IMG/VR virus record: IMGVR_UViG_3300033149_002282
Location: 1-27,784 of that record
From: a virus
Length of the DNA: 27,784 nucleotides
Strand: one strand, 5' to 3'
The translations under genes and the position numbers were made by a program. Positions 6,045 through 24,306 of this stretch are shown piece after piece (positions within the stretch are counted from its first letter, which is position 1; each line of letters begins with the position of its first letter). The notes beneath the pieces were generated by a model, which made no database searches, was not told where the DNA came from, and saw only the letters and a program-made list of their open reading frames with translations.

Positions 6045-6326
6045 ATGAGCGAAATAGCGATTCTGCCGGAACGGTTACGGCGACGACGTGAACGAATGAT
6101 CAATCGGTTAGCGGTGTTAGCTCGGAAACAAATCGAATACGAACGGGCGGTCACCGAGATCGAGCGGGAAGTTCGAGATTTGGAAGCACAGTTCGAGTTG
6201 ATTAAAGCCGTTGAAGGTGATTGGAAAGCGCACGAAAACGCCGTCCAGGACGTAGAACAGAATCCTCAAACTGAAGAAAGGAACATGACGAATGCCTCAA
6301 CCGATAACACTTACAGAGATGAATGA
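6045..6326 (+). CDS. Small charged coiled-coil protein
   Basis: 93 residues, with the very strong ribosome binding site AAGGAGGGG ending just before ATG 6045. Residues 10-60 are a highly charged helix (RLRRRRERMINRL... IEREVRDLEAQFELI) with heptad spacing of Leu and Ile. The tail is polar (NPQTEERNMTNASTDN). It overlaps the first 35 bases of the capsid gene in a different frame and carries that gene's SD (6276-6282), so the two are probably translationally coupled. The role is unknown; an assembly helper for the capsid protein is plausible from its position. Confidence 0.75.
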   Translation: MSEIAILPERLRRRRERMINRLAVLARKQIEYERAVTEIEREVRDLEAQFELIKAVEGDWKAHENAVQDVEQNPQTEERNMTNASTDNTYRDE

Positions 6327-7440
6327 AAGCGCCGATTGGGTTGGGTACCGTGAAAATCGTCTCTCTCGAATCAATACACCCGACCATCTGGCGCGGCTCG
6401 ATGTATTCAATGCGCTGATGGAGAATCGGGATCAACTGCCGACACATCGGTGGTTATATCAGTTGCAGGAAGCCATGACGACGAGCGATTTCCCGTACCT
6501 TTTCGGCGACAGCGTGGCCCGAGAACTGCTTAGCCATTATAAGGCTGTACAGCCGAAGATGATGCAGATTCTGCGGAAACGGGCTCCGGTAGCGGATTTC
6601 CGATCGATCAAAACGTTCCGAAAATCCGGTTACGTCACGATGCGGCTCCAACAGGTGCAGGAGAAAGGCGAATATCTGGCCGCCGAATACGAAGAAGACC
6701 AGACTGAGTACAAGTTGCGCAAATGGGGTCGTCAACTCGATTTCTCGTGGGAAGCCTTCCTCAACGACGATCTCGGTCTGTTCAGCCAATGCGCTCAGGA
6801 TTTAGCCATGGCGGTGCGGAACACGATCGAGTGGTTCGTCACCACGCTGTATTGGAATGCGGCTGGCCCGATAGCTGCCAATTTCGGGAACGCAGCCGCT
6901 TCGACTGCGCCTCTGACTATCGGTGCTCTGGAAACCGCATACGAAGCGATGATCGCGTATCGGCATCCGGACACGAACGAACCGGTTATGAACGCGCCGA
7001 AATATCTGGTTGTACCCCCGGCCTTGAAATTCACGGCGGAACAGATACTACATTCCGTGCAGAAGATGTGGCTGTACCCTGAAAGTGACGAAGGTGGCCC
7101 GTTTGCATATCCAACCACAAACGTTATCTCTCAACAGGGATTGCAACTGATAGTAAACGAATGGCAACCGTTTGTCGATACCACCACACCGACAACCGCA
7201 TGGGCTCTGTTCAGCGATCCGGCACAGATAGCTGCCGGTGAAATCGCGTTTATGAAAGGTCACGAGAATCCTGAGATCGTGATGAAGAAGTCTGATAAGG
7301 TCGGGTTGGCCGGTATGGGCGATCTGTCATCGTTCACGGGCGATTTCGCGACCGATAACATCTTCTATCGTGTCCGCCATGTATTCTATGGGGCAGCGGT
7401 CGAAACCCGAGCTTGCTGGGCGTCCACCGGTACGGGTTAG
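6292..7440 (+). CDS. Major capsid protein
   Basis: 382 residues, in the size range of HK97-fold capsid proteins. The call rests on position (after protease-scaffold and decoration genes, before connectors) and on content: an N-terminal helical segment (ARLDVFNALMENRDQL), an E-loop-like stretch (RKSGYVTMRLQQVQEKGEYLAAEYEEDQTEYKL broken by charged turns), a long spine-like helix (CAQDLAMAVRNTIEWF), 'NAPKYLVVPPALKFTAEQIL' as in many phage capsid A-domains, and a late 'GMGDLSSFTGDFATDNIFYRVRHVF' closing strand. The start ATG has GAAAGGA nine bases upstream. No protease site is obvious, although the first 25 residues could be a removable arm. Confidence 0.85.
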   Translation: MPQPITLTEMNESADWVGYRENRLSRINTPDHLARLDVFNALMENRDQLPTHRWLYQLQEAMTTSDFPYLFGDSVARELLSHYKAVQPKMMQILRKRAPVADFRSIKTFRKSGYVTMRLQQVQEKGEYLAAEYEEDQTEYKLRKWGRQLDFSWEAFLNDDLGLFSQCAQDLAMAVRNTIEWFVTTLYWNAAGPIAANFGNAAASTAPLTIGALETAYEAMIAYRHPDTNEPVMNAPKYLVVPPALKFTAEQILHSVQKMWLYPESDEGGPFAYPTTNVISQQGLQLIVNEWQPFVDTTTPTTAWALFSDPAQIAAGEIAFMKGHENPEIVMKKSDKVGLAGMGDLSSFTGDFATDNIFYRVRHVFYGAAVETRACWASTGTG

Positions 7441-7468: not shown

Positions 7469-7537
7469 CGGGCCGGAGGGGTGTAGGGCCCCTCCTACCG
7501 CATGGTGCGGTTGCGAATACTTCGCCCCTCTGGCCCG
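7469..7537 (+). ncRNA. Cloverleaf-like structured RNA in the capsid 3' UTR
   Basis: A 12-bp outer stem (7469-7480 with 7526-7537, one G-U) encloses three hairpins: GTAGG/CCTAC (7483-7487 with 7494-7498), CGCA/TGCG (7500-7510 region) and GCGAA/TTCGC (7513-7517 with 7521-7525). The element is 69 nt, close to tRNA size, but it has no T-loop consensus, no U33 and a 12-bp 'acceptor', so it is not a normal tRNA. No T-tract follows, so it is not a simple terminator. An alternative 7-bp hairpin (GGAGGGG 7475-7481 with CCCCTCC 7489-7495) is mutually exclusive with the outer stem. It sits in the 123-bp gap after the capsid gene, which holds no coding sequence. Confidence 0.55.
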
Positions 7538-7546
7538 GCTCTCATA

Positions 7547-7554
7547 TAGGAGGG
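7547..7554 (+). promoter_or_regulatory. Ribosome binding site that can be masked by upstream RNA
   Basis: TAGGAGGG, nine bases before ATG 7564, is perfectly complementary over 8 bases to CCCTCCTA at 7490-7497. The same CCCTCC can instead pair with GGAGGGG at 7475-7481. The three segments form an anti-anti-SD / anti-SD / SD arrangement that could switch translation of the following genes. Pyrimidine-rich tracts often match an SD by chance, so this is only suggestive. Confidence 0.4.
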
Positions 7555-7563
7555 ACGATAGGT

Positions 7564-7785
7564 ATGATCGGTATGAATTTAACAGCGGCGGAGACGGCTA
7601 TATTTGCGCTCTGTGCGACGAACATCGGTGCCCTCGTGTGGAACACTGCCTCGCAACATGTACGGCTGCGAGCGCTTGAGCGCACTATCAATAACGGTAT
7701 CTCTGATGCTGTCGCTCGACATAGCGTACAGCTGGCCGCAATCGAAACCCGATGTCGGGAACGACATGCAGGGGAGACTGAATAA
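7564..7785 (+). CDS. Small protein with one hydrophobic segment
   Basis: 73 residues with a strong SD (TAGGAGGG, spacing 9). Residues about 9-28 (ETAIFALCATNIGALVWNTAS) are hydrophobic enough for one membrane helix, followed by a basic amphipathic helix (RLRALERTINNGISDAV) and a charged end. The stop lies one base before the next ATG. Its layout is similar to small phage membrane or lysis-associated proteins, but it lies among head genes, far from the lysis cassette. No family is recognised. Confidence 0.65.
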   Translation: MIGMNLTAAETAIFALCATNIGALVWNTASQHVRLRALERTINNGISDAVARHSVQLAAIETRCRERHAGETE

Positions 7786-22037: not shown

Positions 22038-22766
22038 CTAAGGTTGTAACCGGTGCGCAGCACATACCATAGCCGTCAACCGTCGGTTCTGCCGGGCTCT
22101 CGCCGTATTCGCTGCCGCAATCCATGCCGCAATGTCAGCCGTTATCCTAGCTATTCCGGCAGGAGTAGCCCAAGCCACAACTTCTTCTGATTCTCTAGCC
22201 GCAGCCACAGACTTAATATCCGCCACAGCCCGAGCTCCCGCCGCACCCCTAGCCGCAAAACGCGCTGTACTATAAGCCGCATCCGCAGCTGCCGTTCGAG
22301 CCGCAGCCCGAGCAGTATCATAATCCTCAGCCGCGAATTGAGCCTCAGCCAATTCTTCGTCCGTAGCTTTACCCTGCACCCATAACCGCTTAATACGGAT
22401 GGCGTCCCAGTACCGTTCATCGGTTATCCCCACATCTCGTAACGCTTCTTCGGCCTCCCGACACGCAAACTCGTGCAAGACCATTGTCGCGTCGATCCAC
22501 CACAGAGTCTTCCGCCACGTACCGACAAGCTTGTTCTCGACTGCGACAATCTCGTACGGCTTATCCGCCCCGATCTCAACCCGTTCGATTATCGGGCCCA
22601 GCGCATTTGAAAGTGCGTCAATCAACCGGCGCGATCCGTGCAAACCATTCCAACATAAAGCCGGTTCACCCTCGACACGTAACGTTTGCCCTTTCTTTAC
22701 CAATCGTCCGTCACCGTATCCGAGTCGTCGATCTGCCGACAAGAAATGCCATGCTAATACAGTCAT
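22038..22766 (-). CDS. 'AWHFL' protein with Ala-rich tail, copy 1 (DUF7666-like)
   Basis: 242 residues. The first 130 residues (TVLAWHFLSADRRLGYGDGRLV, 'GLHGSRRLIDAL', 'LWWIDATMVLHEFACREAEEAL', split by turns) match a widespread uncharacterised phage family of pattern AWHFL...D.R LgyGDGR.v..G.tl.v..g.p.lC..GlH.s.r..dAL; I believe this is DUF7666 but could not check. Residues about 140-240 are Ala-rich with repeated 'AAARTAAADAAY / ARFAARGAAG' units. It ends 'ARQNRRLTAMVCAAHR', as its paralogue at 23686-24306 does. It is the last gene of the left-going block, with its stop 7 bp from the converging holin-like gene. Function unknown. Confidence 0.75.
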   Translation of the reverse strand: MTVLAWHFLSADRRLGYGDGRLVKKGQTLRVEGEPALCWNGLHGSRRLIDALSNALGPIIERVEIGADKPYEIVAVENKLVGTWRKTLWWIDATMVLHEFACREAEEALRDVGITDERYWDAIRIKRLWVQGKATDEELAEAQFAAEDYDTARAAARTAAADAAYSTARFAARGAAGARAVADIKSVAAARESEEVVAWATPAGIARITADIAAWIAAANTARARQNRRLTAMVCAAHRLQP

Positions 22767-23685: not shown

Positions 23686-24306
23686 TCAATTCTTTCGATG
23701 TGCGGCGCACACCATCGCTGTCAACCGCCGATTCTGCCGGGCTCTCGCCGTATTCCGCGCTGTATCGCACGGTGCAACCTGAACCGCAACTACAACCGCA
23801 CTCCAAGCTGCGTCGGGAATCGCAGCTATGACCGCTGCCTGAGCAATAGGTTCTGACACGTCATTGTTAGCCGCTTCCCGCGCTTCATCCAACTCGTTGT
23901 CCGTTGCTTTGCCTTCGATCCACAGTCTCTTTACCCGTATCGCGCTCCAACATCGCTCGTCCGTCACCCCAGCATCTCGCAACGCATCCTCAGCCTCTCG
24001 ACATGCAAACTCATGCAGGATCGTTGTTGCGTCCATCCACCACAATGTCTTCCGCCAATTGCCGACAAGTTTCCCTTTATTCTCGATGATCTTATATGGT
24101 TCATCCGCCCCGATCTCGACCCGTTCGATTATCGGGCCTGGCGCATTGTTTAACGCGTTAATCAACCGACGTGATCCATGCATACCATGTAAACACAAAA
24201 CGGGTTCACCCTTGACGCGCAACGTCCGTCCTTTTCGTACCAGTCGGCCATCGTCATGCCCTAATCGCCGATCTCGCGGTAAAAAATGCCATGCTAAGAC
24301 AGTCAT
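23686..24306 (-). CDS. 'AWHFL' protein, copy 2 (DUF7666-like)
   Basis: 206 residues, with a good SD (GGAGG, spacing seven). It is a clear paralogue of 22038-22766: both begin MTVLAWHFL, share 'GEPVLC/GEPALC', 'GPIIERVEIGAD', 'WRKTLWW', 'LHEFACREAE' and 'KRLW', and end 'NTARARQNRRLTAMVCAAHR'. It lacks most of the Ala-rich tail expansion of copy 1. The conserved ends with a variable middle show that the Ala-rich segment is an insertion or expansion between a fixed domain and a fixed C-terminus. Function unknown. Confidence 0.75.
   Translation of the reverse strand: MTVLAWHFLPRDRRLGHDDGRLVRKGRTLRVKGEPVLCLHGMHGSRRLINALNNAPGPIIERVEIGADEPYKIIENKGKLVGNWRKTLWWMDATTILHEFACREAEDALRDAGVTDERCWSAIRVKRLWIEGKATDNELDEAREAANNDVSEPIAQAAVIAAIPDAAWSAVVVAVQVAPCDTARNTARARQNRRLTAMVCAAHRKN

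Follow-up and report, generated by a model that had tools for sequence, protein, structure and literature searches.

A structured RNA with an anti-Shine-Dalgarno motif behind the capsid gene of uncultured tailed phages

Tailed phages need hundreds of capsid copies and few connector copies from one transcript, and how this disparity arises is seldom explained. A phage RNA whose name points to a link with head genes of the Mu gpT type is catalogued as RF03012 (Mu-gpT-DE), a small motif of 53 positions. Apart from this motif, the intercistronic mRNA-decay hairpins (puf, malEFG and an E. coli set; PMC5927463) are stable, free of U-tracts and situated within an operon, between a gene whose product is needed in excess and the gene that follows it; in E. 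coli, stabilised upstream genes of operons have their 3' ends at hairpins that lack a U-tract. The alpha-r14/cuckoo sRNAs of alphaproteobacteria (NfeR1; PMC10746234) display an ultraconserved anti-Shine-Dalgarno (anti-SD) motif in hairpin loops on freely changing stems; they are separate sRNAs with their own promoter and three hairpins, each with CCUCCUCCC. Furthermore, the aapA mRNAs and the MS2 cloverleaf leader (PMC6733600) also combine anti-SD sequences with competing folds near the Shine-Dalgarno sequence (SD), and in these the SD itself lies within the pairing.

The window analysed here (the whole stretch of virus DNA, 27,784 nt) holds a 69-nt element at 7469-7537, in the gap between the capsid stop at 7440 and the ATG of the next gene at 7564, upstream of the SD at 7547-7554. 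It was placed there by a preliminary description made from the sequence alone, and its location has been borne out. This element is a real structured RNA, and two independent relatives (L002 and L003) carry it at the same place, behind the capsid gene and ahead of the next. The features of the locus are the following:

6292..7440, plus strand: major capsid protein gene (Phage_capsid_4, Pfam PF25209, E=1e-36; weakly Mu-like gpT, PF10124, E=2.4e-4; PHROG head proteins)
7469..7483, plus strand: 5' arm of the closing stem P1, CGGGCCGGAGGGGTG (pair probabilities 0.96-1.0; double-sided changes in relatives)
7475..7481, plus strand: GGAGGGG, a possible alternative partner of CCCCTCC at 7489-7495 (forced alternative fold -65.5 versus -69.3 kcal/mol)
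7488..7511, plus strand: core GCCCCTCCT(A/G)CCGCAT(G/T)GTGCGGT, invariant in the alignment of the window, L002 and L003
7490..7497, plus strand: anti-SD CCCTCCTA, complement of the next SD, from the sequence
7498..7510, plus strand: hairpin 2, CCGCA-TGG-TGCGG, the sole conserved inner hairpin (pair probability 0.99; sequence invariant in relatives)
7523..7537, plus strand: 3' arm of P1, CGCCCCTCTGGCCCG (shuffles, pair probabilities, double-sided changes)
7539..7554, plus strand: small local hairpin, 7539-7543 with 7550-7554, covering the SD in the window only (by folding; differs in L002 and L003)
7547..7554, plus strand: SD of the next gene, TAGGAGGG, 9 nt before the ATG at 7564 (from the sequence)
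7564..7785, plus strand: next gene, an unknown small protein of 73 aa with an N-terminal hydrophobic stretch (by eye)

The 73-aa product has no match in PHROG or Pfam, and homologous small ORFs come after the element in L002 and L003.

A closing stem of 12 bp had been proposed; the stem exists and is longer, comprising 15 pairs (two of them G-U) around an invariant core made up of GCCCCUCCU and one small hairpin. When the window flanks were shuffled 2000 times, a stem of P1 length around the core arose once, and for each of the three phages the figure is at most 1 in 2000; the fold z-scores are -3.4 for the window element and -4.0 and -3.3 for its relatives. The three-hairpin cloverleaf drawn inside this stem had to be abandoned: with pair probabilities of 0.019, 0.99 and 0.007 for hairpins 1, 2 and 3, only hairpin 2 is predicted to form; the cloverleaf energy of -39.4 kcal/mol is 4.4 kcal/mol worse than that of the minimum free energy (MFE) fold (-43.8 kcal/mol); and the drawing is itself inconsistent, as hairpins 1 and 2 share a base and hairpin 3 and P1 likewise. 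Neither hairpin 1 nor hairpin 3 is kept in both relatives, the former being missing from L002 and L003 and the latter having a counterpart in L003 only. That the element is not a canonical tRNA agrees with ARAGORN, which reports 0 genes; the idea of a tRNA mimic falls with this absence of a match and with a cloverleaf fold that is neither favoured nor conserved.

A capsid query returned three contigs, namely L001, with an element identical to that of the window, and the independent L002 and L003, with capsid identities to the window of 82% and 78%. P1 comprises 16 bp in L002; in L003 it has 14 bp, with the two outermost positions unpaired. Across the trio of window, L002 and L003, 96% of its cells are paired in the structural alignment, versus 39-57% with one arm slid by 1-3 positions. 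The search for covariation in related phages, which the preliminary description had proposed, revealed double-sided changes at seven P1 pairs in the three phages (for example, G-C, A-U and C-G at a single position), counted on a hand-made structural alignment since MAFFT misplaced a gap in the P1 arms; RNAalifold on the MAFFT alignment undercounts the covariation owing to this gap. The stem of hairpin 2 shows zero sequence variation in the trio. A search of 2.9 million viral contigs located the core pattern in these phages only, and a relaxed pattern yielded 31 stretches, with the full element only in L002 and L003; the remaining stretches were judged from their folds to be chance occurrences. 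Because P1 has changed on both sides, the folds are stable and neither a U-tract nor a terminator call is found, a structured RNA between the capsid and downstream genes is supported, and the element has survived checks for the three outcomes named beforehand as speaking against it (no compensation, no stable fold, simple terminator activity). No family of Rfam 15 reaches the gathering score at the element, where a search at E 10 returned sub-threshold chance matches only, and the hairpins of the wider relatives are likewise without a match at gathering score. Even at a threshold of E 10, the covariance model of RF03012 fails to match the element in the window, L002, L003 and ten relatives.

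More than 100 wider loci were gathered with the capsids of L003 and L047 and a 15-row capsid alignment, and the gap set comprised 66 non-redundant stretches of 40-135 nt that separate the capsid gene from its downstream neighbour. A contiguous helix of at least 10 bp is present in 56 of these 66 gaps versus 10.9 expected, the MFE z-score lies below -2 in 82% of them, and a U-rich tail follows the main hairpin in only two. On about 28 phage hairpins the apical loop reads UUU-N-CUCCUUU, resembling the 16S anti-SD tail, while the stem sequence varies freely; the loop served to select these hairpins, so its constancy is partly a product of selection, and the fair test is enrichment in the unselected gaps, where CTCCTT occurs in 24 of 66 versus 3.2 expected (maximum of 9 in 200 shuffles). 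The U residues on the 5' side of the loop are conserved as well.

A covariance model built from five hairpins (R1) gave 28 matches in 98 sources (418 kb), all on the plus (coding) strand and 27 of them directly behind the capsid gene, with one (L184) after an inserted ORF. In these matches 97.6% of the cells are paired versus 71% in shuffles and 55-65% in slid controls, and double-sided changes are found at all 11 pairs with a covariation score attained by 0 of 500 shuffles, the covariation counts being inflated by phage kinship and the alignment being fitted to the model. Of 42 phage records, 29 contain exactly one match to the model R2, as a rule behind the capsid gene; the window, L002 and L003 have none. 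In the window trio, the gap behind the capsid gene holds a long covarying stem whose loop contains CUCC, and this element is probably a branched variant of the same hairpin design, a kinship that rests on position and design; the design is common to a large clade of uncultured tailed phages. The genes after the element differ among phages and belong to several unrelated types; therefore, the element is not the leader of one gene. An exact search with the 15-mer loop gave 55 matches in viral contigs, with a stem of at least 14 bp only in the two phages already known, while three further matches have a common helix of 10 positions and 9 pairs within an identical stretch. In 395 genomes from the phylum of one metagenome-assembled genome (MAG), R2 has no matches, and capsid models recovered distant relatives only, plus the phage contig itself.

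Two observations on individual loci may be added. L011 (JAFDED010000081.1), with a capsid equal to that of L001, is binned in a Deltaproteobacteria MAG, which may indicate the host or a binning error. In L184 (2620-3220), the ORF that parts the loop-bearing hairpin from the capsid gene has, by eye, a LAGLIDADG-like start (YLAGIVDGEGYIGI) and a resemblance to a homing endonuclease, and a second hairpin with a U-tail lies 3' of this inserted ORF.

The preliminary description proposed a switch in cis, in which CCUCCU has two partners, the next SD in the repressed state and the upstream GGAGGGG in the open state, and the formation of P1 controls the next gene. Its sequence basis stands: the anti-SD of the window is a perfect 8-bp complement of the next SD, GGAGGGG is likewise complementary to CCCCTCC, and each of the three close phages can form the alternative hairpin at a cost of about 3-5 kcal/mol. 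Covariation with the SDs did not emerge, and the support is generic, as the anti-SD core is invariant and the SDs variable, with 8, 5 and 5 bp in the window, L002 and L003 and no compensation. Among 30 relatives a swap test gave 4.87 bp between a loop and its own SD versus 4.94 bp with the SDs of others, and in 19 of 29 hairpins the linker could not bring the SD to its loop while the stem stays closed, on a rough estimate that allows 2.8 A for each bp and 6 A for each nucleotide of linker, with the SD taken to start at the first SD-like match. By swap test and linker geometry, pairing with the adjacent SD as a general function is ruled out; in contrast to aapA and MS2, the SD pairing of the phage element lacks covariation support and is often sterically barred. 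A pseudoknot-free state with SD and anti-SD paired would further cost 15-22 kcal/mol, and the small hairpin at 7539-7543/7550-7554, absent from the preliminary description, masks the SD of the window by itself. The linker from P1 to the SD is 10-11 nt in the window trio and suffices to span the stem, so a local switch is possible there; the switch as originally conceived is weakly supported, and we consider it unlikely. The capsid gene's own SD, mostly AGGAGG or CGGAGG, has no special match to CUCCUUU and was discarded as a partner of the loop. Action in trans, in which the abundant capsid mRNA, whole or as a cleaved fragment, would pair with the SDs of further mRNAs from phage or host in the manner of the alpha-r14/cuckoo sRNAs, would agree with the single copy per record, mostly located behind the capsid gene, with the differing downstream genes, and with a constant anti-SD loop on changing stems, as described for those sRNAs (PMC10746234). 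Nevertheless, there is no sign of a separate small RNA, an own promoter (a promoter scan gave nothing at the element site) or targets, no Rfam match, and one hairpin in an operon instead of three, with CUCCUUU in that hairpin in the relatives and CCCCUCCU in the core in the window trio; we hold this reading to be improbable. Equally improbable is its extension to a phage mimic of the 16S rRNA 3' tail, in which the capsid-transcript loop acts in trans on SDs and shifts translation late in infection. To our knowledge, such trans control of SDs has not been described for tailed phages.

The loop may also serve as a site for a phage or host RNA-binding protein, or for a factor recognising the 16S 3' tail, with the stem merely presenting it; the invariant CUCCUUU together with the conserved 5'-side U residues, inexplicable by an SD, would suit such a site, but no candidate protein has come to light and CUCCUUU is already explained by SD complementarity, which makes this a long shot. 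An intrinsic transcription terminator after the capsid gene would explain why a highly expressed gene is followed by strong, GC-rich stems, yet it is very improbable given that U-tracts are absent from the window, L002 and L003 and as rare in the gap set as noted above, and that a terminator scan called none at the site. Hairpins form easily in GC-rich DNA, and a chance fold in a GC-rich gap would need nothing else; the shuffles of each phage, the compensatory changes and the enrichment in the 66 gaps refute it, leaving it practically no credence.

Right past the capsid stop, AAAGGA(G) lacking a usable start codon occurs in roughly one quarter to one third of the loop-bearing loci, with a loop match of 6-10 nt, and is associated with the CUCCUU loop at a Fisher p of about 0.001-0.002 that is confounded by kinship. 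In L176, L177, L163, L149, L157, L155, L171 and L183, AAAGGAG, again with no start codon that could be used, lies in the first 30 nt past this stop and has a complementarity of 7-10 nt to the loop of the hairpin downstream.

The best explanation, on which our own judgement is evenly divided, is an intercistronic mRNA-processing or decay hairpin which would separate capsid from downstream expression and which bears an anti-SD pyrimidine loop. The element would sit on the late head-gene mRNA, co-transcribed with the capsid gene, where its long, sequence-variable stem would display the loop and most likely act as a processing or decay-stop hairpin, providing the capsid mRNA with a separate 3' boundary. 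An excess of capsid protein is required, and through a presumed effect on mRNA levels this protein would be made in larger amounts than the products of the downstream genes. Like the puf, malEFG and E. coli hairpins, the element is a stable hairpin between operon genes with no U-tract; an effect of the phage element on decay is proposed by analogy. We know of no constant anti-SD loop in those intercistronic hairpins. Since simple decay-stop hairpins require no conserved loop, the constant CUCCUUU loop needs an extra function, most likely an added translational control via SD pairing, which may be transient in cis or operate in trans. Against placement directly behind the capsid gene stand G016, G018 and G019, with the loop-bearing hairpin 1.7-2.2 kb past it, in two of them ahead of a connector-like gene. 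A covarying RNA with a constant anti-SD loop at the capsid boundary makes the question of the capsid/connector ratio directly testable, and a covariance model is now available for an RNA family absent from Rfam 15.

Elsewhere in the window, two clearly similar proteins (MTVLAWHFLSADRRLGYGDGRLVKKG... and MTVLAWHFLPRDRRLGHDDGRLVRKG...) are encoded on the minus strand at 22038-22766 and 23686-24306, which suggests gene duplication. A short tandem repeat at about 840-940, with similar peptides in several frames, surrounds the end of the first ORF and adjoins the start of the next gene.
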